Translations under genes and position numbers: made by a program | The notes under the pieces: model-generated | What the model was told of the DNA's origin: nothing | The model's input: only the letters and a program-made list of their open reading frames with translations | Databases searched by the model: none | NCBI GenBank assembly: GCA_016841965.1 | Contig: JAEANN010000002.1 | Location: 62,001 to 126,000, forward strand | Source of the DNA: Candidatus Roseilinea mizusawaensis | Lineage (GTDB): Bacteria; Chloroflexota; Anaerolineae; J036; Brachytrichaceae | DNA: 64,000 bases | Direction: 5' to 3' | Part shown: piece by piece, positions 24,305 through 35,478 of the stretch | How positions within the stretch are numbered: position 1 is the stretch's first letter | Layout of the letters: every line of letters begins with the position of its first letter

Positions 24305-25930
24305 CTAGAGCTGTGGCTGTGTCACAAGCGAGGCGATTGCGCGGCGGGCGTCTTGTTCATCAACGTCGCTGGTGACAAATGCGTCACCAGGCGCCCGGAG
24401 CAACACGAAGCGCACTTTCCCACCGCGTTTTTTCTTGTCTGATTGCATCAAGCGCCACACGGCATCGACATCGATCGCAGGCAGCGACACCGGCAGGCCG
24501 GCCTGCGCCAACACATGGGTGACAGCCCGGGTTGTGTCGCGGTCGCACGTTCCCATCGCCTCTCCCAGACGCATGGCGCACAGCGTGCCCAGTGACACCG
24601 CCTGGCCATGTTTGATGGTGAAGTTGCTCCAGCCTTCGATGCCATGCCCGAACGTATGACCCAGATTCAGCAATGCCCGCCGGCCCTGCTCGAACGGATC
24701 TTCCTCGACCACATCGCGCTTTAGCAGGATTGCGTCGCGCAGCGATTGTATGAGCGACGCTCGGAGATGAGGGTTAGCCCTCAATTGCCAGTCGTCCGGC
24801 GTCATCTGTTGGATGCGCTCCCACGCCGCGCCTCCGCGCAGCAATGCTGCCTTCACAATCTCGGCCCAGCCGCACTGCAACTCAACCGCCGGCAGCGATT
24901 GCAGCAGCTCGTAGTCCATGAGCACCAGGTCGGGCTGTTTGAACGCGCCGACCAGATTCTTGCCGAACGGCGTATCCACCCCCACTTTGCCGCCAATGCT
25001 CGAATCGGCCATTGCCAGCAGCGAGGTGGGCATTTGGACAAAAGAGACCCCCCGCATAAACGTGGCGGCGGCAAAGCCGGCCACATCGCCCACCACGCCC
25101 CCGCCCAGCGCAATCACCGCCCCATTGCGTTCCAAACCGTTCAGCGCAAAGCTTTGGTACATCTCCTCGACCGAGCGCAGGGTCTTGTGGGTTTCGCCGG
25201 CCGGCATGATGTGAACAAAACTGGCCAAGCCGGCCCGGCCGAGCGCGCGTTGCAGCCGGCCGGCATACAGCGGCCCGACCTCGCTGTCCGACACAATGGC
25301 CAGTGGCGGCGACCAACCGCGCGGCGCCAGCGCAAAGCCGGCCTGGTCGATCACGCCCGTGCCCATCACGATGTCGTATTGGCCGGCCGGATGGCGCACC
25401 GCAATCCGCTCTTGTTCGGCGCGATAAATGTCGAGCGCGCAACGGGCTGCCTCTTCGGCGCTGCGATGGGTGGTGTCAAGATGATAGTGCAGCTCGGCAT
25501 AAGCCGGCGCGCGCGCTTTGAGCAATTGCGCCACGCGGTCGTGGACCTTCTCGCCTGGTTGCGTTGGGCGCAACAGCGGGCGCGTCGAGGCGTCTACCCG
25601 GCGCAGAATCGCTTCAGGCGCAGCCGTCAGGCAGATGACAATGCCGGCCTGCAACAGCGCAGCGCGGTTGGCCGCATCCACGATCATGCCCCCGCCGGTG
25701 GCAATCACAATGCGCTCGCGCCCGACCACTTCCCTGACCAGAGCCGACTCCAGGGCGCGGAAGTGCGGCTCGCCTTTCTGATCGAAGATCTGCGCAATGC
25801 TCAGACCGGCGCGCTGTTCGATCTCGGCGTCGGTGTCGATGAAGTCGTAGCCGAGTTGGGCGGCGACGATCTTGCCGATGGTGGTTTTGCCGGCGCCCAT
25901 GAAGCCGGCCAGAATGAGCGGTTTACTCAT
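24305..25930 (-). CDS. aroKB: Shikimate kinase - 3-dehydroquinate synthase fusion
   Basis: 541 residues from the ATG at 25930. Residues 1-~172 are shikimate kinase: P-loop 'GFMGAGKTTIGK', 'DTDAEIE', 'GGGMIVD', and 'RPLL' lid Arg. Residues ~180-541 are 3-dehydroquinate synthase: 'GGGVVGDVAGFAAATFMRG', 'PTSLLAMADSSIGGKVGVD', metal ligands in 'EIVKAALL' and 'LNLGHTFGHGIE', and 'DKKKRGGKVRFVLL'. The fusion links pathway steps 2 and 5. Its start overlaps the aroC stop by 8 nt, so it is the last gene of the aromatic operon. Expression as one chain should fix a 1:1 ratio of the two activities. Confidence 0.95.
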   Translation of the reverse strand: MSKPLILAGFMGAGKTTIGKIVAAQLGYDFIDTDAEIEQRAGLSIAQIFDQKGEPHFRALESALVREVVGRERIVIATGGGMIVDAANRAALLQAGIVICLTAAPEAILRRVDASTRPLLRPTQPGEKVHDRVAQLLKARAPAYAELHYHLDTTHRSAEEAARCALDIYRAEQERIAVRHPAGQYDIVMGTGVIDQAGFALAPRGWSPPLAIVSDSEVGPLYAGRLQRALGRAGLASFVHIMPAGETHKTLRSVEEMYQSFALNGLERNGAVIALGGGVVGDVAGFAAATFMRGVSFVQMPTSLLAMADSSIGGKVGVDTPFGKNLVGAFKQPDLVLMDYELLQSLPAVELQCGWAEIVKAALLRGGAAWERIQQMTPDDWQLRANPHLRASLIQSLRDAILLKRDVVEEDPFEQGRRALLNLGHTFGHGIEGWSNFTIKHGQAVSLGTLCAMRLGEAMGTCDRDTTRAVTHVLAQAGLPVSLPAIDVDAVWRLMQSDKKKRGGKVRFVLLRAPGDAFVTSDVDEQDARRAIASLVTQPQL

Positions 25931-27092
25931 ATCCAAATTGCCACGGCGTGTTGTCCATCGGCAGCTCGTCCAATCGCAGCCGGCGCAGCGTCTGGAAACG
26001 GGGGCGCATTTCGTCTATCGAGTCGCCGCCCAGCTTTTCCAGCAACGCATCGGTCAGCACGATGCACAGCATCGCTTCGACAATCGGCACAGCGCGCGGC
26101 ACCTGGCAGAAGTCGCTGCGCTCATACTGTGTGGCTGCCGGCCGGCCGGTTGCCAGATCGACCGATTGCAGTGGGGTAAGCGTGGTGGCGATCGGCTTCA
26201 AGGCGGCGCGCACCACGATGGGCGCGCCGTTGGTGATGCCGCCCTCCAGCCCGCCGGCGTGATTGCTCGTTTGACGAATCTCGCCCTGCTCGACGATCAG
26301 TTGATCCTGCGCCTGGGTGCCGGGGCGGCGTGTTTCGGCAAAGCCGTCGCCGATCTCCACGCCCTTCATGGCGTGAATGCTCATCACCGCGGCTGCGATG
26401 CGCGCCGACAGCCGGCGATCCCAATGCACATGGCTGCCCAGGCCGGGCGGCACGTTCAGCGCCACGCATTCGACCACTCCGCCGAGTGTGTCTTTGGCCT
26501 GCATGATCTGGCGAATGGCGTCGCGCATACGCTCGGCTGTTTGGGGGTCATAGCAGCGCACGTCACAGGCTTCGGCAGCCTGGAAGCGCTCTTCGTAGCT
26601 CAGGTTTGATGGCCCGACCGACACGTTGCCTACGCTGACGACATAGCCGCCCACAACAATGCCAAACTCGGCCAGCAGTTTGCGACAGACTGCGCCGACA
26701 GCCACGCGCATGGTGGTCTCGCGGGCCGAGGCGCGCTCCAGGGCCAGGCGCAACTCGCGGTAGCCATACTTGACAGCGCCGGTCAGGTCGGCGTGGCCGG
26801 GGCGGGGAATTGTCATCGGCGCAATGTCGCGCGCGCGCCATTTAGCATGATCGAGATTTTCTACGCTCAGGGCGATTGGCCCCCCGGTAGTTTTGCCGGC
26901 CATCACGCCGGCGGTGATGCGGGCGTGGTCACGCTCGATCTTCATGCGCCCGCCGCTGCCAAAGCCTTGTTGCCGGCGCGCCAGATCGGCGTCGATGTCG
27001 GCGGATGACAATGCCAGGCCGGCCGGCATTCCTTCCAGAATCGCCGTGAGCGACGGCCCGTGCGACTCGCCGGCGGTGAGAAATCGGATCAT
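25923..27092 (-). CDS. aroC: Chorismate synthase
   Basis: 389 residues from the ATG at 27092. It makes chorismate from EPSP and needs reduced FMN. Signatures: 'GESHGPSLTAILEGMPAG', 'RRQQGFGSGGRMKIE' (near 48), 'RPGHADLTGAVKYG', 'RASARETTMRVAVGAVC', and 'RSDFCQVPRAVPIVEAML' near the end. The start codon directly abuts a degenerate GATTGGG array instead of a Shine-Dalgarno, so translation may rely on coupling or an unusual site. It is the penultimate gene of the operon and overlaps aroKB. Confidence 0.96.
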   Translation of the reverse strand: MIRFLTAGESHGPSLTAILEGMPAGLALSSADIDADLARRQQGFGSGGRMKIERDHARITAGVMAGKTTGGPIALSVENLDHAKWRARDIAPMTIPRPGHADLTGAVKYGYRELRLALERASARETTMRVAVGAVCRKLLAEFGIVVGGYVVSVGNVSVGPSNLSYEERFQAAEACDVRCYDPQTAERMRDAIRQIMQAKDTLGGVVECVALNVPPGLGSHVHWDRRLSARIAAAVMSIHAMKGVEIGDGFAETRRPGTQAQDQLIVEQGEIRQTSNHAGGLEGGITNGAPIVVRAALKPIATTLTPLQSVDLATGRPAATQYERSDFCQVPRAVPIVEAMLCIVLTDALLEKLGGDSIDEMRPRFQTLRRLRLDELPMDNTPWQFGYE

Positions 27093-27176
27093 TGTTTGAT
27101 TGGGTGATCGGGCCATCGGGCGATTTGTTGATGGGCGCAACGACTCAACCGCCCGATGGCTCAAGGACTGAATGGC

Positions 27177-28535
27177 CTAATCTGCACTCGCCAGCGCGCC
27201 CATCGGGTCCCACGGCGGCAACCGCACCGGCTCCGATTCGAGAATCGGCAACAATTCTTGCGGCACGTACTGCTTCTCGACGGCTATCTCGTACATGTAC
27301 TCGTCGAACCAGGCGTCGTTCATCACCAGGAAGCCCTTGTCGCCCAGCTTGTCACCCCAGCTATTCTCGACGCGCCACTTCACCGGCCGGCCTTGCTCGT
27401 CCAGATCGACGCCGGTGAAGACCATGGCGTGGGTCATCACGCTCTGCCCATATTCGACGCGCTCGGCTTTGTCTGCGCGGAATGGCGCGCCGTATACCGA
27501 GGCGTAGTCGTACAACTGCGTATGCAGAATGCCCAGATCGCGCTCCAACATCTTGCCTACGTCACAGCCAAACCACACCGGCTTGCCATCCACAATCTGC
27601 CGGACTGCCGCCTGCTTGAACACCGGCATCTCCACATTCAGATAGCGGATGATCTGGCCTTCGGCCACGTTCCCCAGATACGAAATGGTGTATAGCCTGT
27701 TGAACGGCTTGTCAGCGGTGGGGCAGTGAATCAGGCAGGCCATCGAGTCCAGGTCGAACTGGACATAGCGGTTGAAGAACTGCTGGGGGGTAATGAGGCC
27801 GTCGCGGTGAAACACATCGTCTTTGTCGCGCCATTGCCAGTAGAACTCGTGCGGGGGCTGGCCCAGGTGAATCGTCAACATGCGATAGATGTCGGACATC
27901 ATGTCCACCTTGCGCGCGCGCAGATCGGCCATGCCGGCGCCTCGTGCGCTCATGCGCCGCAACTCGGCGGCGTCTTCGCGCAGCCGGTTGGTGATGAGTG
28001 ATGTCATCACCCACGAGTTGCTGCTGCTCTCCGCCTCCGGCATGAAGCTCTTTGGCACAACGCCGTACTTCTTCACCAGATTGACGAACATGTCCCATTG
28101 CCCGCCATCCTGAATCGGGTTTTGCAACAGGAACATGATCAGCCGGCCATCGGTTGGCTCGCTCAGCGTGTCCAGGATGCTCTCCAGAAAATAGTTGGCT
28201 TTCTCCAGCTTGTCCCAGAACATCATGTAGTTTTGCGACAGCTCGAACTTGTCTACGTTGAGGCGCTTCATGGCCTCGACGCGAAACAGGTTCAGGCCGG
28301 CAAACAGCCAGCACCGCCCGCTGCGCTCCTGAGCGGTTGCCTCATTGCTTTTCAGCATGTGCGAGTACACGTGGTTGACACTGGCGACTACCTCGCGGTT
28401 CAACGCCACCGCATGCACCGGGTTCTTGGTGACGGCGTTCATCGCCATGCGGTTTTTCGGGTCGCCCTCGAACTGCGACTGATACTGTTGCAAATGTTCG
28501 CGTGTGATGGGGCCTGCTGCGTGTGTGGCATTCAT
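27177..28535 (-). CDS. Bleomycin hydrolase-like aminopeptidase C (peptidase C1B)
   Basis: 452 residues from the ATG at 28535, which has GGAGG 6 nt upstream. Cytoplasmic papain-fold peptidase: Cys in 'ERSGRCWLFAGLN', His in 'THAMVFTGVD' and Asn in 'WRVENSWGDKLGDKGF'. 'KFELSQNYMMFWDKLEKANYFLE' and 'PIQDGGQWDMFVNLVKKYGVVPKSFMPE' are typical of PepC/bleomycin hydrolase. It sits between aroE and aroC on the same strand with gaps of 50 and 84 nt, so it should be co-transcribed with the shikimate genes although no metabolic link is obvious. Amino acid recycling is the only shared theme. Confidence 0.9.
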   Translation of the reverse strand: MNATHAAGPITREHLQQYQSQFEGDPKNRMAMNAVTKNPVHAVALNREVVASVNHVYSHMLKSNEATAQERSGRCWLFAGLNLFRVEAMKRLNVDKFELSQNYMMFWDKLEKANYFLESILDTLSEPTDGRLIMFLLQNPIQDGGQWDMFVNLVKKYGVVPKSFMPEAESSSNSWVMTSLITNRLREDAAELRRMSARGAGMADLRARKVDMMSDIYRMLTIHLGQPPHEFYWQWRDKDDVFHRDGLITPQQFFNRYVQFDLDSMACLIHCPTADKPFNRLYTISYLGNVAEGQIIRYLNVEMPVFKQAAVRQIVDGKPVWFGCDVGKMLERDLGILHTQLYDYASVYGAPFRADKAERVEYGQSVMTHAMVFTGVDLDEQGRPVKWRVENSWGDKLGDKGFLVMNDAWFDEYMYEIAVEKQYVPQELLPILESEPVRLPPWDPMGALASAD

Positions 28536-28585
28536 TGAGATCCTCCAAAAGGTGATACAGAGATTACGTGGATTGGGCCGGCCCG

Positions 28586-29491
28586 TCAAGCTGATAGAAC
28601 CCGGCGCATGATGTCGGCAACCTCGGCGATGGAGAGGGGGAGTGTCAGGTTGGCTGTCCACAAGGCGAAGGCGGCTGCGCCCTGCTCGGCCAGCATCCCG
28701 ATGCCGCCGATTGCGCGCAGGCCGGCGGCTTCAGCCTGGCGCATCAGCCGGGTCACGCGCGGTTTGTATACCAGGTCATACAGCACTGCCTCGCGCGGGA
28801 AGGGTATTCCATCCACCCAGGGCGTGCTATCCTCGTTCGGCTCCATGCCGGCCGAGGTGCAATTCACAATCAGGCGCGCGTCCTGCGCAGCGCGGCGCAA
28901 TCCGTCTGCATCCAGCGCCAGCGCAGACAGGCGGCTGTCTGGAAACACTGCGCGCATGTCATCGACCAGCCGGCGCGCTCGCGCCACGTCGCGGTTGACC
29001 ACGCGGATCGACCAGCCACTGTATGCCAGCGCATACACGATGCCGCGCGCCGACCCGCCCGCGCCGAGCACCAGCGCCGTGCAATGCTCCGCAGCCGCCC
29101 CCGGCCCGCTGTCTACGCCGTGCCAGCGCAGATCGTTGAGGAAGCCGATCCAGTCTGTGTTGTCGCCGATTAAGCGGGGCGCGCCGCCCGGCGTGTCGCC
29201 CGGCGTGTCGCCCGCTGCCTTGATGATGGTGTTCACTGCCCCGATCGCCTCGGCATGCCGGCTGATTTCGTCCAAAAACGGCATGACATTGACTTTGTGC
29301 GGCACGGTCACGTTGGCCCCAGCAATGCTAATGTCATCGCGGATGCGCCACACCCGCTCGGCCAGCTCTTCCAGCGGCGTATGCCACAGTTCATATTGCC
29401 AGTCCATGCCGGCGGCGGCAAATGCGGCGCCCTGCATGCGCGGCGACGCGCTGTGCGCCACCGGACAGCCGATCAATCCAATCCGTTTCAC
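28586..29491 (-). CDS. aroE: Shikimate dehydrogenase
   Basis: 301 residues from a GTG at 29491 with GGAGG 7 nt upstream. It reduces 3-dehydroshikimate with NADPH. Visible: shikimate site 'GCPVAHSASPRMQ', catalytic Lys in 'GANVTVPHKVNVMPFLD', 'GAVNTI', 'IGDNTDWIGF' (catalytic Asp), nucleotide loop 'LGAGGSARGIVYAL', 'VNRDVARA', and 'NCTSAGM'. The start overlaps the aroA stop as GTGA, so it is translationally coupled. A short DTPGDTPGG repeat lies in the loop before the Asn-Asp motif. Confidence 0.95.
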   Translation of the reverse strand: MKRIGLIGCPVAHSASPRMQGAAFAAAGMDWQYELWHTPLEELAERVWRIRDDISIAGANVTVPHKVNVMPFLDEISRHAEAIGAVNTIIKAAGDTPGDTPGGAPRLIGDNTDWIGFLNDLRWHGVDSGPGAAAEHCTALVLGAGGSARGIVYALAYSGWSIRVVNRDVARARRLVDDMRAVFPDSRLSALALDADGLRRAAQDARLIVNCTSAGMEPNEDSTPWVDGIPFPREAVLYDLVYKPRVTRLMRQAEAAGLRAIGGIGMLAEQGAAAFALWTANLTLPLSIAEVADIMRRVLSA

Positions 29492-30786
29492 GAAACAGCC
29501 TCCGGGCACAGCGTAGCCAGATCGTTGAAAAATCCCGGATACGTTTTGCTCACACACTCTGCGCCGGTGATGAGCGTTTCGCCATCGGCCACCAGCGCGG
29601 CCACAGCCAGCGCCATTGCCATGCGATGATCCCCCCGGCCATCGACCACTGCGCCGCGCAAGCGGGTTGGCCCCTCGACGATGAATCCATCGGGCGTGGC
29701 CTCGATGCGCGCGCCCATCTTGCGCAACTCTTCCACCAAGCCGTCGATGCGGTTGCTCTCTTTCACGCGCAACTCTTCCGCATCGCGCACCACGGTTGTG
29801 CCGTGCGCCTGGGTGGCGGCCACAGCAAAGACCGGGAACTCATCGATCATGCGCGCCACCAGTTCGCCGCCGACGTCGATGCCGCGCAGCGCGCTGGATG
29901 AGACGACGATATCTCCCACCGGCTCGCCGCCGGCATCGAGGGCGTGCGCCTCAACCTCGATCTGCGCGCCCATGGCTTGCAAGGCGTCGAGCAGGCCGGT
30001 GCGCGTGGGATTCAGGCCGAGGTGCGTCAGACGCAACCGGCTCTGAGGATGGATGCACCCGGCGACGAGAAAGAACGCCGCAGAGGAAAAGTCTGCCGGC
30101 ACATGCATCTCCAGGGGGCGCAGGCCGGCCTGCGGCGCTTCGGTCTCGATCAACCCGGCCGGGTCGCGCCGGACAGACGCTCCCATTGCCGTCAGCAGGC
30201 GCTCGGTGTGATCGCGGGTCATGGCCGGTTCTGTGATGCGGGTGTGTCCCTCGGCATACAGCGCTGCCAGCAACAACGCCGATTTGATCTGCGCGCTGGC
30301 AATGGGCAAGGTATAGGCGATGCCGTGCAGCGAGGCGCTTTCGATGTGTAACGGGGCGCAGCCGTCGGTGTCTGTGATACGCGCGCCCATGTGGCTCAGC
30401 GGTTGGGTGACACGGCGCATGGGCCGCCGGCGCAACTGCGCGCTGCCATCCAACACGCTGCCGAACGATTGCCCGGCCAGCAGGCCGGCCAGCAGGCGCA
30501 TGGTTGTGCCCGATGAATCGCAGTACAACGGCTGGCCGGCCGGCTTCAACCCGCGCAGTCCGCGCCCTGCAATCAGTAGCGTCTGCTCGCGCTGCTCGAT
30601 GGCCACGCCTAGATGTTGCATGATGCCGATCGCTGCGCGCGTATCGTCGCTGTCCAGATACTCGCGGATGCGGCAGGCGCCATTGGCGATGCTGCCCAGC
30701 AATACCCCGCGCACGGTAATGCTGCGATCGCTCGGCGCGCGCAATGCACCGGCGAGTTGGCGGGGCGGATAAATAGATTGGTTCAT
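29488..30786 (-). CDS. aroA: 3-phosphoshikimate 1-carboxyvinyltransferase (EPSP synthase)
   Basis: 432 residues. Adds enolpyruvate from PEP to shikimate 3-phosphate. Most signatures are intact: 'SGTTMRLLAGLLAG', 'LRRRPMRRV', 'SAQIKSALLLAAL', 'MTRDHTERLL', 'DFSSAAFFLVAG', 'LRVKESNRI' and 'GDHRMAMALAVAAL'. The N-terminal motif is unusual: 'APSDRSITVR' instead of PG(D/S)KS, with Arg21 where nearly all enzymes have a substrate-binding Lys. Overlaps aroE by 4 nt (GTGA); tyrA lies 60 nt upstream. A heptad-like stretch (CAATTGACGATTGAG) lies just before the start. Confidence 0.94.
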   Translation of the reverse strand: MNQSIYPPRQLAGALRAPSDRSITVRGVLLGSIANGACRIREYLDSDDTRAAIGIMQHLGVAIEQREQTLLIAGRGLRGLKPAGQPLYCDSSGTTMRLLAGLLAGQSFGSVLDGSAQLRRRPMRRVTQPLSHMGARITDTDGCAPLHIESASLHGIAYTLPIASAQIKSALLLAALYAEGHTRITEPAMTRDHTERLLTAMGASVRRDPAGLIETEAPQAGLRPLEMHVPADFSSAAFFLVAGCIHPQSRLRLTHLGLNPTRTGLLDALQAMGAQIEVEAHALDAGGEPVGDIVVSSSALRGIDVGGELVARMIDEFPVFAVAATQAHGTTVVRDAEELRVKESNRIDGLVEELRKMGARIEATPDGFIVEGPTRLRGAVVDGRGDHRMAMALAVAALVADGETLITGAECVSKTYPGFFNDLATLCPEAVS

Positions 30787-30846: not shown

Positions 30847-31737
30847 TCAGAAGTGCGCCTTGCGGGTTGTGGCTGCGCCGGCCAGATAGGCGCGCAGGCC
30901 GGCCTCGTCTTTGCGTTCGATCATCGCTGTGAGCTGGTCGAGTGAAAACTGGAAATCGCGGATGGCCCCCGTGACCGCGTTGGCGTTGGTCAACAGAATG
31001 TCCAGCATCATGGTCACATCGCTGGCAGCCACGCGGCTGGTGTCGCGGAAGCCGCTGGCGGTCACCTGCCACAGCGCCGGGTCGTTCAGGCCGGCCTGAT
31101 CGGCTGCTGTGACCAGCGCCACAGCCAGCGCGTATGGCAGATGGCTGGCGAAGGCCACCAGCATGTCGTGCCGGGCTGGGTCCAGCTCCAGCGTGACGGC
31201 CCCGGCATGTTCTGCCAGCGTTTTGACGGCTGCCAAGGCCGCGTCGTCGGTGCGAGTCGAACGGGTCAAGATCCACGTCTTGTTGCGATACAAATCTGCA
31301 TCGGCGGCATCGAGGCCGGTTACCTCCTTGCCGCACATCGGGTGCGAGCCAACCGCGCGCAAAGAATCAGGCAACCGATTCATGGCGCGGACGATCTCCG
31401 ACTTGGTGCTGCCCAGGTCGGTGATGATGGCGCCGGCTTTGGCTGCGCCGGCCAGATCGCCCAACTGTGTAATGATTGTGCGCACCGGCGTGGCCAAGAT
31501 CACCATGTCAGCGCCGGCCACGCCCTCTTCCAGGCTGGTTGTGGCGGCGTCGACGATGCCGCGCGCCAGTGCCTCGTGGGCGGTCTCGGCGCGCCGGGCT
31601 ACGCCGGTGATATGCGCATAGTGGCCCCGCACGGCCAGCGCCAGCGACGCTCCCATCAGCCCCAACCCGACGACACAAACGGATGATTGGCGATTGGCAA
31701 TTGCGGTTGGCGGATTAACGATTGACGATTGGCTCAC
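30847..31737 (-). CDS. tyrA: Prephenate dehydrogenase
   Basis: 296 residues from a GTG at 31737. Makes 4-hydroxyphenylpyruvate (or, if arogenate is used, tyrosine) with NAD(P). The dinucleotide loop is 'VVGLGLMGASLALA', and the prephenate site is 'GSHPMCGKEVTGLDAADADLY' with the catalytic His; 'FASHLPYALA' and 'SGFRDTSRVAASD' are family marks. The first ~18 residues, with 'SIVN' and 'IANRQSS', are encoded by seven GATTGGC-type heptads (31685-31733), so the native N-terminus was built from, or lies after, a repeat array. No ribosome site is visible. It follows aroF with a 25-nt gap. Confidence 0.93.
   Translation of the reverse strand: MSQSSIVNPPTAIANRQSSVCVVGLGLMGASLALAVRGHYAHITGVARRAETAHEALARGIVDAATTSLEEGVAGADMVILATPVRTIITQLGDLAGAAKAGAIITDLGSTKSEIVRAMNRLPDSLRAVGSHPMCGKEVTGLDAADADLYRNKTWILTRSTRTDDAALAAVKTLAEHAGAVTLELDPARHDMLVAFASHLPYALAVALVTAADQAGLNDPALWQVTASGFRDTSRVAASDVTMMLDILLTNANAVTGAIRDFQFSLDQLTAMIERKDEAGLRAYLAGAATTRKAHF
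31685..31733. repeat. Heptad array, seven units, encoding the TyrA N-terminus
   Basis: GATTGGC, GATTGGC, AATTGCG, GTTGGCG, GATTAAC, GATTGAC, GATTGGC: strict 7-bp period over 49 bp. Confidence 0.85.
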
Positions 31738-31762: not shown

Positions 31763-32794
31763 TCACACGGTGCGATCGACTGCCTCGGCCACCCGGCGCA
31801 CGCGCGCCACTAGGTCGGCGTAGCGCGCCGGCGTCAAAGACTGCGCGCCGTCGGACAGCGCCTGCTCTGGGTGGGGATGCACCTCGACGATCAGGCCGTC
31901 TGCGCCGGCGGCAATGGCAGCCTTCGAGACGGCGGTGACATACTCCCATTTGCCGGTGCCGTGGCTGGGATCGACAATCACCGGCAGGTGGCTGAGTTGT
32001 TTCAGCACCGGCACCGCGTTGATGTCGAGCGTGTTGCGGGTGTAGGTCTCGAAGGTGCGGATGCCGCGCTCGCACAGCATGACGTTGTAGTTGCCCTGCG
32101 ACATGATGTACTCGGCAGCCATGAGCAGCTCTTCCAGTGTGCTGGACATGCCGCGTTTGAGCAGCACCGGCTTCATGCTGGCGCCGGCGGCGGTGAGCAG
32201 CGGATAGTTCTGCATGTTCCGCGCGCCAATTTGCAGGATGTCGGCGTAGCTGGCCACAAGGTTCACCTGCTCCGTCGCCATCACTTCGGTCACGATCGCC
32301 AGCCCGTATTCCGCGCGCGCCTGGGCCAGCCATTTCAAAGCGTCTTCGCCGTAGCCCTGGAACGAGTAGGGCGAGGTGCGCGGCTTGTACGCACCGCCGC
32401 GCAGAATGCTTGCCCCGGCTTCCTTCACCATGCGCGCGCTCTCCATGATCTGCTCGCGGCTCTCGGCGGAACACGGGCCGGCCATCAGGGCAATTGCTGC
32501 TGGAGGCCCGCCGACCTGCACCGTGTGCCCGTTGACCCGAATCGAGATAATCGTGTCATCTTTCTTAAATTCGCGGCTGGCCAGTTTGAAGGGCCGCAAG
32601 ATAGGCACCACACGCTCCACCCCGCTGAGCAGCTCGAACAAGTCGCGGTTGACCGGCCGGTCGTTGCCCACCACGCCGATGATGGTGCGCTCCTCGCCCT
32701 GTGACAGGTGCGCTTTCAGGCCGATCTCTTCGATGCGTTTCACCACTGCCCCGACTTCGGCGGTCGAGGCGTCGGATTTCATGATGATGACCAT
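31763..32794 (-). CDS. aroF: DAHP synthase, second tandem copy
   Basis: 343 residues from the ATG at 32794. Condenses PEP and erythrose 4-phosphate, the entry to the shikimate pathway. An N-terminal ferredoxin-like domain (residues 1-~68, '[22 protein letters not shown]') precedes the barrel: '[10 protein letters not shown]', '[18 protein letters not shown]', 'QIGARNMQN', 'KPVLLKRG', 'CERGIRTFE', 'VDPSHGTG'. This is the short type I-beta form found in Thermotoga and Bacillus, where the N-domain mediates Tyr/Phe inhibition. It is about 70% identical by eye to the adjacent copy at 33015-34043, a tandem duplication. Repeat element copy B lies in the 220-nt gap between them. Confidence 0.95.
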
Positions 32795-32828
32795 CTTTCT
32801 ATTTCCGATTTTAGATTTGCGATTCTGG

Positions 32829-32954
32829 CTACCTGACAGATTCCCACGACGCCCGGTCAACTGCGCTCGGTCGCCGGCCTCGCGGACGAGGCCGGGGAGC
32901 CAGTAAGCGGCACACAGACAATCAGTCACTGTTTTCAAATCTGTCGGGTAGCTG
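32829..32954. repeat. TIR-bounded repeat element, copy B
   Basis: Left end CTACCTGACAGATTCCCAC; right end reads, reverse complemented, CAGCTACCCGACAGATTT. The inside keeps one GGCCTCG-CGGA-CGAGGCC hairpin and the CAGTCACTGTTTTCAAA segment also found at the right end of copy A (8709-9078). It is flanked on both sides by the same 15 bp, GATTTGCGATTCTGG (32814-32828 and 32955-32969). Those flanks are heptads of an array, so the duplication may be target-site duplication or a property of the array itself. Confidence 0.75.
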
Positions 32955-33014
32955 GATTTGCGATTCTGGATTGGGCGCGCGTGCCACCCGGCAACAATCC
33001 ACAATCCAAAATGC

Positions 33015-34043
33015 CTATAGGCTGCGGTCCATAGCCTCGGCGATCCGCCGTGATTGCCGCACCAGATCGGCAAATTCTTCGGGCTTCAGCGATTGCGCGC
33101 CATCGGACATCGCCTGCGCCGGGTCGGGATGCACCTCGACGATCAGACCATCTGCGCCGGCGGCAATCGCGGCTCGGCTGGCGGCGGTGACGTATTCAGA
33201 TTTGCCGGTGGCGTGGCTGGGATCGACGATCACCGGCAGGTGACTGAGCTTCTTCAGCACCGGCACCGCGTTGATGTCAAGCGTGTTGCGGGTGTAGGTC
33301 TCGAAGGTGCGAATGCCGCGCTCACACAACATGACGTTGTAGTTGCCGCGCGACATGATGTACTCGGCGGCCATGAGCAACTCTTCGATGGTGTTGGCCA
33401 TGCCGCGCTTGAGCAGCACCGGCTTCATGCTGGCGCCGGCGGCGTTGAGCAGCGCAAAGTTTTGCATGTTGCGCGCGCCAATCTGAAGCACGTTGGCGTA
33501 TTGCGCCACCAGCGACACTTGTTCGGGCGACATGACTTCGGTCACGACGGCCAGGCCGGTTTGTTCGCGTGCTTCGGCCATCCATTGCAGCGCCTTTTCG
33601 CCGTAGCCCTGGAACGAGTAGGGCGAGGTGCGCGGCTTGTACGCGCCCCCGCGCAGCCCTTTGGCGCCGGCTTCTTTCACCGCGTGCGCTGCTTCCAACA
33701 CTTGCTCGCGGCTTTCGGCAGAACACGGCCCGGCAATGATGATGATCTCGTTGCCTCCCATCTTGACGCCGTGACCGTTCATGCCGATCAGTGTCACGGT
33801 CGTGTTGTCCGGCTTGAACTCACGGCTGGCAAGTTTGAATGGTTTGAGGATCGGCAGCGTCGCCTCAACGCCGGGCAACGTCTCGAAGATGGTGCGATCG
33901 ACTGGCCGGTCATTGCCAACCAGCCCAATCACCACGCGTTCTTCGCCGTAGATCGGATGGGCCTGAAACCCCAGCGACTCGATGCGCGCCATGATGGCGC
34001 CGACTTCTTTGGTAGTTGCGCCTGCCTTCATGATGATGACCAT
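33015..34043 (-). CDS. aroF: DAHP synthase, first tandem copy
   Basis: 342 residues; ATG with AGGAG 7 nt upstream, the better ribosome site of the two copies. Same domain order as its neighbour: N-terminal regulatory ferredoxin-like domain ('[22 protein letters not shown]'), then the barrel with '[10 protein letters not shown]', '[18 protein letters not shown]', 'QIGARNMQN', 'KPVLLKRG', 'CERGIRTFE', 'VDPSHATG'. Differences cluster in the N-domain and its linker, where feedback ligands bind in related enzymes, so the two copies may differ in inhibition by Tyr, Phe or chorismate. Second gene after the attenuator, 87 nt behind aroH. Confidence 0.95.
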
Positions 34044-34130: not shown

Positions 34131-34499
34131 TCAGCCTTCGCGAATCCTGTCTGGGCGCAGTTTCTCTGCGCCCCGGATGTAGACATGTTTGATCTCGCTG
34201 GCCGGCTTGTCCGTGTTCCAGTGGATCAGGATACGCACACAGCGCGGTAGGTCATGTGGCACATCCATTTCGTGCATACACATCAGCGCGGTCTCTGTCC
34301 AGCCGAGCTGGCGCGCCGCAACGGCAGGAAACTCGGCGTTTAGGTCGCGCGTGGTGCTGAAGAAGGCGCTGGCAATGTGCTCGGCTTGAATGCCGTTTGC
34401 CTCAACCAGTTTCTCCAGCAACTCGCGGGTTGCCTCAATGATTGCCGTTTTGGTGTTCTCGGTTGCTACTGTCGCTCCACGCACGCCGCGTAATCCCAT
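34131..34499 (-). CDS. aroH: Chorismate mutase, AroH class
   Basis: 122 residues; ATG with AAGGAGG about 11 nt upstream. Converts chorismate to prephenate. Matches the Bacillus-type trimeric fold: 'GLRGVRGATVATENTKTAI' (active Arg), 'ATRELLEKLVEANG', 'ASAFFSTTRDLNAEFPAVAAR', 'MCMHEMDVP' and 'LPRCVRILIHWNT' (Arg of the active site). First structural gene of the aromatic operon, right behind the attenuator. Having chorismate mutase and tyrA but no prephenate dehydratase here points to tyrosine as the main end product of this operon. Confidence 0.95.
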   Translation of the reverse strand: MGLRGVRGATVATENTKTAIIEATRELLEKLVEANGIQAEHIASAFFSTTRDLNAEFPAVAARQLGWTETALMCMHEMDVPHDLPRCVRILIHWNTDKPASEIKHVYIRGAEKLRPDRIREG

Positions 34500-34583
34500 A
34501 TCTTGATAGTCCTCCTTAAGTTTTGTTTTTTGTGCCAGCCGACATGCTCAACCGCCTGCCTGGTCTGTCAGTCGCACAACAAA

Positions 34584-34614
34584 AAGAGCGCGGGGCTTAC
34601 TGCTCCGCGCTCTT
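34584..34614 (-). terminator. Attenuator terminator of the aromatic operon
   Basis: On the minus strand AAGAGCGCGG / CCGCGCTCTT, perfect 10-bp stem, 11-nt loop, then TTTGTTG: an intrinsic terminator lying between the leader ORF stop (34637) and aroH (34499). Its 5' arm and loop can instead pair with the leader (see the antiterminator entry). Confidence 0.9.
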
Positions 34615-34677
34615 GATTCCCTGAAATCCGTCTACTTCAACTGGTCAATCCCTTCGTAGACTCGCGTGGGAGTAAGC
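34595..34677 (-). promoter_or_regulatory. Antiterminator pairing of the aromatic attenuator
   Basis: Leader GCTTACT (34677 to 34671) and CGCG (34666 to 34663) can pair with AGTAAGC (34601 to 34595) and CGCG (34609 to 34606), separated by a 4x4 internal loop. This pairing uses the 5' arm and loop of the terminator, so both cannot form. The same leader CGCGAGT (34666 to 34660) can pair with ACTCGCG (34741 to 34735), giving the classic 1:2, 2:3 and 3:4 alternatives. Confidence 0.75.
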
Positions 34678-34744
34678 TGCCTTTGCCGGCGGCAAAGTAG
34701 CCGTAAAACCAGAAGTAGCTAAACGAGAAAACTCCGCGAGTCAT
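34637..34744 (-). CDS. Aromatic-rich leader peptide of the aro operon
   Basis: 35 codons starting with ATG at 34744 and ending in TGA. Residues 6-17 are FSFSYFWFYGYF, nine aromatic of twelve, covering Phe, Tyr and Trp. The later part ('AAGKGSLLPRE') is encoded by the RNA segment used in the antiterminator. A ribosome stalled at residues 6-17 for lack of aromatic aminoacyl-tRNA would mask ACTCGCG and free the antiterminator; a ribosome reaching the stop codon would cover that segment and let the terminator form. No Shine-Dalgarno; the predicted transcript start is only about 8 nt upstream, so translation is nearly leaderless. Confidence 0.88.
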   Translation of the reverse strand: MTRGVFSFSYFWFYGYFAAGKGSLLPRESTKGLTS

Positions 34745-34759
34745 TGCTAAGCGGACGAG

Positions 34760-34788
34760 ATGGTAATTCATGCCGGGTGGTGTGTCAA
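34760..34788 (-). promoter_or_regulatory. Promoter of the aromatic operon
   Basis: TTGACA (34788 to 34783), 17-nt spacer, TACCAT (34765 to 34760) on the minus strand; the leader ORF begins 15 nt after the -10 box. Confidence 0.75.
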
Positions 34789-34814
34789 GAGGGATTTTTC
34801 CAGTTTGGGCGTTT

Positions 34815-34820
34815 TACAAT
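34815..34820 (+). promoter_or_regulatory. Putative -10 box 7 nt before start (leaderless)
   Basis: TACAAT, then CCCGGCC and the ATG at 34828. The same CCCGGCC-ATG follows TATAAT at the 49451 gene. Confidence 0.5.
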
Positions 34821-34827
34821 CCCGGCC

Positions 34828-35478
34828 ATGCCGCGCTACATTGCCCTGTTCAAGCCCTACGGCGTGCTATCGTCGTTTACCCACGAGGCGCAGCCGGCCG
34901 ACGCCGCAAAGCGCACACTGAGCGAGTTTGGCCTGCCGCCCGGCGTCTACGCAGCCGGCCGGCTGGACTACGACAGCGAGGGCCTGCTGCTCCTCAGCGA
35001 TGACGGCGCTTTCATCCATCGCCTGACCGACCCGCGCCATAAGCTGCCCAAAACATACTGGGCGCAGGTCGAGGGCGAGCCGGCCGAATCTCAACTGAAC
35101 CAGTTGCGGCGCGGCGTGCTGGTGCGCGGCTATCGCACGCGGCCTTGTCGGGCGCGCGTGTTGGCGGCCGGCATTGCGCCGGCTCAGGCCAACAGCCCTT
35201 TGGCGCCCTTGTCGCTGGCCGGCCAGCAACTGGCCGGCCAGCAACTGGCCGGCCAGCCCATCGCATTGCCCCCGCGCGACAAGCCGGTGACGCCGCACGG
35301 CCCCACAGCCTGGATCGAGTTGATCCTGACCGAGGGCAAGAAGCGCCAGGTGCGCCATATGACTGCCGCTGTCGGACTGCCCACCTTGCGACTGATTCGT
35401 GTAGCGATTGGCCGGCTGACCCTCGCCGGTTTGGCGCCGGGGCAGTGGCGCGATGTCTGGCCGGCGGATATCCTGTAG
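34828..35478 (+). CDS. RsuA/RluE-type rRNA pseudouridine synthase
   Basis: 216 residues from the ATG at 34828. Lacks an N-terminal S4 domain, like RluE/YmfC and other short members. Motif I is 'IALFKPYGVLSSF', the catalytic Asp is in 'AAGRLDYDSEGLLLLSDDG', and 'TYWAQVEG' and 'TEGKKRQVRHMTAAVGLPTLRLIRVAIG' are typical of the family that modifies 16S or 23S rRNA uridines. A family-atypical insert 'LAGQQLAGQQLAGQ' comes from a 15-bp repeat (35215-35256). No Shine-Dalgarno; TACAAT lies 7 nt before the start. Confidence 0.88.
   Translation: MPRYIALFKPYGVLSSFTHEAQPADAAKRTLSEFGLPPGVYAAGRLDYDSEGLLLLSDDGAFIHRLTDPRHKLPKTYWAQVEGEPAESQLNQLRRGVLVRGYRTRPCRARVLAAGIAPAQANSPLAPLSLAGQQLAGQQLAGQPIALPPRDKPVTPHGPTAWIELILTEGKKRQVRHMTAAVGLPTLRLIRVAIGRLTLAGLAPGQWRDVWPADIL
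35215..35256. repeat. 15-bp in-frame tandem repeat containing GGCCGGCC
   Basis: CTGGCCGGCCAGCAA, 2.8 copies, inside the pseudouridine synthase gene; each unit contains the palindrome CTGGCCGGCCAG. Confidence 0.9.

Follow-up and report, generated by a model that had tools for sequence, protein, structure and literature searches.

A probable ribosome-mediated attenuator with an aromatic leader peptide upstream of a shikimate gene row in Chloroflexota

The attenuators of the E. coli trp and pheA operons combine an open reading frame (ORF) carrying codons for the end product, the alternative helices 1:2, 2:3 and 3:4, and a terminator placed before the biosynthetic genes, while the E. coli ilvGMEDA leader is a single peptide that pools codons for more than one of the end products to which a branched pathway leads. 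The nearest described case to the element presented here is the AroR leader of Corynebacterium glutamicum aroF, which, in the account of Neshat et al. (2014) given in PMC11802643, contains a Phe-Tyr-Phe motif and answers limitation of Phe and not of Tyr. Upstream of Acholeplasma aroF lies uORFC-13-1, a candidate upstream ORF that contains one or more Phe codons, comes with an apparent terminator and has 24 representatives (PMC8632094). The authors of a 2010 survey of premature terminators, who described leader-peptide systems in Firmicutes, knew of no earlier ones beyond Proteobacteria and Actinobacteria (PMC2965389). A 2013 survey based on Rfam, which covered five Chloroflexi genomes, found riboswitches in these and proposed a gamma-proteobacterial origin for leader motifs (PMC3766115). 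Leaving aside the survey of Lopatovskaya et al. (2010, Mol. Biol. 44:128), our literature search found no description of such a leader in Chloroflexota; an earlier note on this DNA, made from its letters alone, likewise knew of none.

In the current study, we analysed a 64,000-nt stretch of a Chloroflexota genome (the window) together with related loci, and we conclude that a leader upstream of its shikimate genes is very probably a ribosome-mediated transcription attenuator of the trp/phe type. Like the E. coli trp and pheA leaders, it consists of an end-product codon ORF, the three helices and a terminator before biosynthetic genes. It differs from them in that it shows no match to the Rfam leader families (Trp_leader RF00513, Phe_leader), in that Phe, Tyr and Trp codons are mixed, in that the pairing of segment 2 extends across the terminator loop as far as the 3' arm, and in that, within the family, the leader ORF lacks a Shine-Dalgarno sequence and lies very near the predicted start of transcription. 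With AroR, as far as that system is described in the account cited above, it shares a leader of Phe and Tyr codons before a DAHP synthase gene, stalling on which raises transcription in AroR; however, the short Phe-Tyr-Phe motif there contrasts with 5-10 aromatics in 12 codons here, and a DAHP synthase operon of Actinobacteria with a whole shikimate row of Chloroflexota, and we would not expect the two to be homologous in sequence. uORFC-13-1 is similar in that a DAHP synthase gene follows a Phe-codon ORF and what looks like a terminator, but belongs to another phylum; ilvGMEDA likewise pools codons, but for branched-chain amino acids and in an unrelated sequence. The mechanism is thus a known one, while the RNA family is apparently undescribed, the phylum apparently new and some features apparently variants. 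The coordinates are collected in Table 1.

Table 1. Elements of the leader and genes of the downstream row (positions are those of the window)
Feature	Position	Strand	Remarks
Sigma-70-like promoter TTGACA-N17-TACCAT	34760..34788	minus	10/12 matches
Leader ORF MTRGVFSFSYFWFYGYFAAGKGSLLPRESTKGLTS, 35 codons, without Shine-Dalgarno	34637..34744	minus	conserved in family and class
Segment 1 of the long-range pairing (codons 2-5), ACTCGCGGAGT; partner at 34673-34660	34731..34741	minus	fold and cognate test
Control region, codons 6-17, FSFSYFWFYGYF	34694..34729	minus	5 Phe, 3 Tyr, 1 Trp
Short 1:2 hairpin, GGC-TAC-TTT-GCC (last aromatic codons) with GGC-AAA-GGC-AGC-TT	34675..34702	minus	family covariation
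Segment 2, antiterminator strand GCTTACTCCCACGC	34664..34677	minus	ribosome placement and family covariation
Segment 1 partner ACTCCCACGCGAGT, overlaps antiterminator strand	34660..34673	minus	fold
Intrinsic terminator (3:4), AAGAGCGCGGAGC-AGTAA-GCCCCGCGCTCTT and T tract	34581..34614	minus	purpose-made search
aroH, chorismate mutase type I	34131..34499	minus	PF07736, E 8e-48
DAHP synthase with ferredoxin-like domain, copy 1	33015..34043	minus	PF00793, PF18152
DAHP synthase with ferredoxin-like domain, copy 2	31763..32791	minus	PF00793, PF18152
tyrA, prephenate dehydrogenase	30847..31737	minus	PF02153, PF20463
aroA, EPSP synthase	29488..30786	minus	PF00275
aroE, shikimate dehydrogenase	28586..29557	minus	PF08501; start codon uncertain
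C1-like (bleomycin-hydrolase type) peptidase	27177..28661	minus	PF03051; start codon uncertain
aroC, chorismate synthase	25923..27164	minus	PF01264; start codon uncertain
aroKB, shikimate kinase-dehydroquinate synthase fusion	24305..25936	minus	PF01202, PF01761

Both the promoter and the 35-codon ORF claimed by the earlier note are present at the tabulated positions, with the ATG at 34744 and the stop codon ending at 34637. The whole unit spans 34788-34581, so that the upper end of the interval proposed there (34584-34788) was correct and the lower end lay 3 nt short. An in-frame ATG upstream of 34744 sits in the promoter spacer and adjoins the -10 element, which makes 34744 the first usable start of the leader. 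The arrangement is a family trait: TTGACA, a spacer of 16-17 nt and TAnnnT ending 12-20 nt 5' of the leader ATG were found in 23/25 family leaders, and a Shine-Dalgarno-like stretch before the ORF in none of the 25. If transcription is assumed to begin about 7 nt past the -10 box (a promoter prediction and not a mapped 5' end), the 5' untranslated region of the family leaders would be about 5-13 nt long, with a predicted start about 10 nt before the ATG. In other families, the distance from the -10 box to the leader ATG is mostly 26-43 nt. Close to the leader promoter, at a distance of about 40 nt, a divergent pseudouridine synthase gene (PF00849; 34828-35478, plus strand) begins, and a promoter-like site (34813-34842, plus strand) overlaps its start.

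Codons 6-17 of the leader read F S F S Y F W F Y G Y F, which bears out the nine aromatic residues in twelve counted by the earlier note, at a density unmatched in the window: among the ca. 98,500 stop-free 12-codon windows in the six frames of the 64 kb, only the leader run exceeded 6 aromatics (9; windows overlapping it held 7 or 8), and the best unrelated window reached 6. In the 25 family leaders, the last seven codons of the run (positions -6 to 0) are the most constant, and positions -6, -4 and -3 are aromatic in 24-25 of the 25 with synonymous codons mixed; the leaders as a set contain 265 TTY against 44 TTR in frame, versus 118 against 121 in frame +1. (A spaced pattern of Phe/Tyr codons was rejected as evidence by itself, for it also matches elsewhere in the genome, at control level.) The earlier proposal that all three aromatic tRNAs are sensed at once fits most family leaders, in which Trp lies inside the run in 20/25 (at position -4 in 14 and at -5 in 6), but not the leaders elsewhere, where the run is mostly Phe and Tyr and includes Trp in only 7/32. 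Judged from sequence, then, the phylum-wide signal would be Phe plus Tyr, with Trp mainly a feature of the window's family. The composition of the run also differs by lineage, from Phe/Tyr/Trp in the window's family to Phe-rich in L048 and seven Tyr in L147. Nearly all-Tyr runs occur in L147 (around 287, YYYYYYY) and L148 (around 368, YCYCGYYYYAYA), and from these it seems that the amino acid sensed differs between lineages.

The strong intrinsic terminator that had been placed before aroH is indeed there. Its stem comprises 13 positions with one A-C mismatch near the AGTAA loop, and a simple terminator scan of the window's leader missed it, probably because of that mismatch. The leader RNA as a whole folds 2.9 sd better than shuffled versions. 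The competing helices were assessed in an alignment of the 25 family leaders, with counts of compensatory changes set against shuffles. In this alignment, the terminator is paired in 98.5% of cells, with compensatory changes. The short 1:2 hairpin (RGC-UAC-UUU-GCC), which the last aromatic codons form in addition to the long-range 1:2 pairing, is paired in 93% of cells, with compensatory changes at 4 pairs and 18 compensatory cells versus 5.1 in shuffles, and its 3' strand enters segment 2; unaided, RNAalifold recovered this hairpin and the terminator, which together hold 43 compensatory cells versus 12.6. Segment 2 (GGSAGCUUACU) in turn pairs with AGUAAGCUCC, that is, with the terminator loop and the apical part of the 3' arm. 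Taken with the hairpin, this pairing shows 25 compensatory cells versus 7.8 in shuffles and both-sided changes at 9 pairs versus 3.1 (0/500), and 89% of cells are paired versus at most 54% in slid controls. Duplex folding indicates that the helix usually extends into the terminator 5' arm. It excludes the terminator, as is required of an antiterminator. All three stems, 1:2, 2:3 and 3:4, therefore co-vary, as the earlier note had suggested they should if the leader is an attenuator.

That note had also envisaged a leader segment able to pair with either the start of the leader or the terminator 5' arm. The first alternative was found (ACTCGCGGAGT with ACTCCCACGCGAGT), whereas the conserved antiterminator goes beyond the 5' arm and through the loop. 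An antiterminator made only of leader CUCC and terminator GGAG is available in the window but is not kept so in the family, and it was accordingly replaced by the longer helix. Striking cases of segment 2 and its terminator partner changing together are L104 (GAGCUUGCC/GGCAAGCUC), L105 (GGCUUGCCAG/CUGGUAAGCC) and L110 (GGAGC-G-GGCUG/CAGCC-A-GCUCC).

The last of these bears on a different reading of the leader, in which a conserved K-G-S-L-L-x-R tail of the peptide would stall the ribosome on a free aromatic amino acid, much as TnaC does with tryptophan. The residues after the run (KGSLL/KASLL) are in fact conserved within the family. However, segment 2 and the hairpin 3' strand make up the very RNA that encodes the tail, and this suffices to explain why the peptide is conserved; L110 retains the RNA pairing with the frame shifted by one and a different peptide (QVERAVV). 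Tails in other families are unrelated, and induction of the TnaC type would be the opposite of the logic expected for biosynthetic genes. Given that the RNA accounts for the tail and that the tail is lost in L110 while the pairing is kept, we consider an arrest peptide improbable.

Returning to attenuation by alternative helices, we also compared the duplex energy of each segment 2 with its own terminator and with those of other leaders, a test that needs no alignment. Across 38 non-redundant leaders, the cognate pairings averaged -30.4 kcal/mol versus -24.8 kcal/mol for permuted ones (z -9.4; 0/20000). Among family leaders, head:segment 2 and core:segment 2 gave z values of -5.0 and -4.9, versus 0.0 and 0.1 for the two pairings that the mechanism ignores (head:terminator and core:terminator); permutation removes kinship among the leaders only in part, but kinship would touch these negative controls as well. 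In the non-family part of this first set, the two 1:2 pairings were weak (z -1.1 for the head and -1.8 for the core). The same comparisons in 25 further leaders, drawn later as a second set and belonging to other families, gave -5.8 for segment 2:terminator, -4.7 for head:segment 2 and -4.4 for core:segment 2, with negative controls at -0.4 and -0.2. The window's own segment 2:terminator duplex is average (-23.8, with 16/37 foreign terminators equal or better), and that of its sister L091 is strong (-33.1; 0/200 shuffles). Shuffling segment 2 alone proved a weak test (mean z -2.3) because GC-rich terminator arms pair with anything, and it was replaced by the cognate-versus-permuted comparisons with their negative controls.

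The consequences of ribosome position were modelled on the window's leader by equilibrium folding of the RNA up to 5 nt past the terminator loop; the values that follow are thus products of a model and not measurements. With no ribosome, segment 2 pairs upstream with a probability of 0.43 and with the terminator 5' arm and loop with one of 0.08. A ribosome on codon 4, 11, 14 or 17 raises the latter to 0.61-0.71, and one past segment 2 reduces it to 0.00. When the complete terminator is included, it prevails at equilibrium for every ribosome position (0.88-0.89), and therefore the decision must be a kinetic one, made during transcription, as in trp.

Together, the end-product codon run, the terminator before the first gene, the mutually exclusive helices, the in silico placement of the codons and the Pfam identities of the downstream genes, which serve the amino acids sensed, point to the following course of events. 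Polymerase would start about 10 nt 5' of the leader ATG, and a ribosome would enter the ORF while the leader RNA is still being made. When charged Phe-, Tyr- and (here) Trp-tRNA are ample, the ribosome would cross the aromatic codons and come to sit on segment 2 at the time that polymerase synthesises the terminator; alternatively, it would depart, whereupon the leader head and the final aromatic codons would capture segment 2 (1:2). Either way, covered or captured, segment 2 would leave the terminator to form, and transcription would end before aroH. Should one of these tRNAs be uncharged, the ribosome would halt on the aromatic run, between the leader head and segment 2, where it would hide the head, stop the core from pairing and free segment 2. 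The latter could then form the 2:3 helix with the loop of the terminator together with its 5' arm and the upper part of its 3' arm, so that the terminator would be blocked and the aroH-DAHPS-DAHPS-tyrA-aroA-aroE-peptidase-aroC-aroKB row transcribed. In this scheme, we infer both that the leader ORF is translated and that stalling is caused by uncharged tRNA.

Identification by Pfam agreed with the earlier assignment of the downstream genes to shikimate and Tyr/Phe biosynthesis, and their order and spacing suggest that aroH through aroKB form one transcript under the terminator. aroH itself has a good Shine-Dalgarno sequence (TAAGGAGG, 34518-34511). The peptidase between aroE and aroC (27177-28661, minus strand) has no obvious role in a shikimate row. 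The tandem DAHP synthases (31763-34043, minus strand) are both of the ferredoxin-domain type and about 74% identical; genomes of genera g1 and g3, like most of those of g4, likewise carry two, and g8 mostly one.

A covariance model built from the 25 family leaders found one strong copy in 26/28 family genomes (E 1e-26 to 9e-14), followed by a gap to 6e-6, and no second strong match in any of these genomes; in the window's own genome, the next match had an E value of 0.25. In the two family genomes that the model did not match, matches to DAHP synthase were either lacking or truncated. The leader peptide is present in nearly all family genomes with a complete locus, regardless of the first gene, which in the loci examined is always AroH or a DAHP synthase: aroH in genera g1, g4 and g6, a ferredoxin-domain DAHP synthase in g2 and g3, and an AroG-type DAHP synthase followed by a ferredoxin-domain one in g5, g7 and g8. 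The leader is thus common to loci headed by all three (compare L102-L112 and L096-L101 with L089-L095), and it would appear that the switch was retained while the head of the operon was swapped. Conservation of the aromatic run in relatives, on which the earlier note had made its reading depend, holds both in this family and in others.

The wider spread was examined among public genomes, where small ORFs with 5-9 aromatics per 12 codons were found upstream of aroH in 39/43 Chloroflexota loci, and in 301 genomes drawn from the phylum, 157 of which have aroH; 79 loci were then read with upstream sequence. Among these 79 loci, aroH is preceded by the leader and terminator in each of the eight families sampled from the window's class and in four further families (f71, f81, f107 and f110), and the combination is absent from most other Chloroflexota families. 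On the reverse strand of the same stretches, at least 6 aromatics occurred in 2/79, and in random 450-nt stretches of such loci in 16/1160, some of which may be the leader itself. Carriers include Chloroflexus islandicus (L030), Kouleothrix aurantiaca (L015) and Oscillochloris (L028), and the second large branch looks like Chloroflexia. Class-wide matches to the covariance model near or above 1e-5 need reading; L146-L148 are true and L149 is false.

This distribution is hard to square with a constitutive leader, in which the ORF and terminator would give a fixed readthrough or aid reinitiation with no sensing at all. A role in reinitiation has been proposed for bacterial leader genes generally (PMC4833913), but here 137 nt and a terminator separate the leader stop from the aroH start, and such a role would explain neither why an aromatic run is kept over two large branches amid changing surroundings nor why the mutually exclusive helices co-vary. 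We accordingly give it very little credence, less than the arrest peptide. Least credible of all is a leader in which the terminator serves another sensor, such as a T-box, a riboswitch or an RNA-binding protein (e.g., TRAP), the ORF being incidental. T-boxes or TRAP do control aromatic biosynthesis genes in other phyla, but the ORF occupies most of the leader RNA 5' of the terminator. At the gathering cutoff, no Rfam family, T-box RF00230 included, was found in the window; at a relaxed threshold (E up to 10), no leader or sensor family, again including T-box, was found in the leader, and seven related loci yielded only tRNA and 6S genes located elsewhere.

An attenuator it therefore very probably is, and a broader proposal can be framed around it: that in two Chloroflexota branches, a single leader peptide pools Phe and Tyr codons (with Trp in the window's family), and thereby makes the entire shikimate operon respond to any aromatic tRNA that runs short, and that in this family, the ORF on which the ribosome initiates is almost leaderless and free of a Shine-Dalgarno sequence, so that initiation is tied to the fresh 5' end. 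As a whole, we rate the chances of this proposal at about even. An attenuator in these two branches would mean that coupled transcription-translation serves regulation there. The distinct variants of the switch, of which there are more than 60, would constitute a natural set in which run composition and antiterminator geometry vary, and the element may offer a regulatory handle on aromatic biosynthesis in Chloroflexota, the cultured Chloroflexus included.

In Planctomycetes, no conserved aromatic ORF was found upstream of aroH. Their AroH proteins (L009-L011, L013 and others) are up to about 68% identical to that of the window, as are many from Chloroflexota, which suggests that aroH was transferred between the two phyla without the leader. 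Given that such close AroH proteins occur with no aromatic ORF, the leader does not merely travel with aroH. Finally, L205 and L206 (f74) carry an aromatic ORF (FAGFYFYAY) before aroH for which a simple search found no terminator; these may possibly represent a translational version of the switch.
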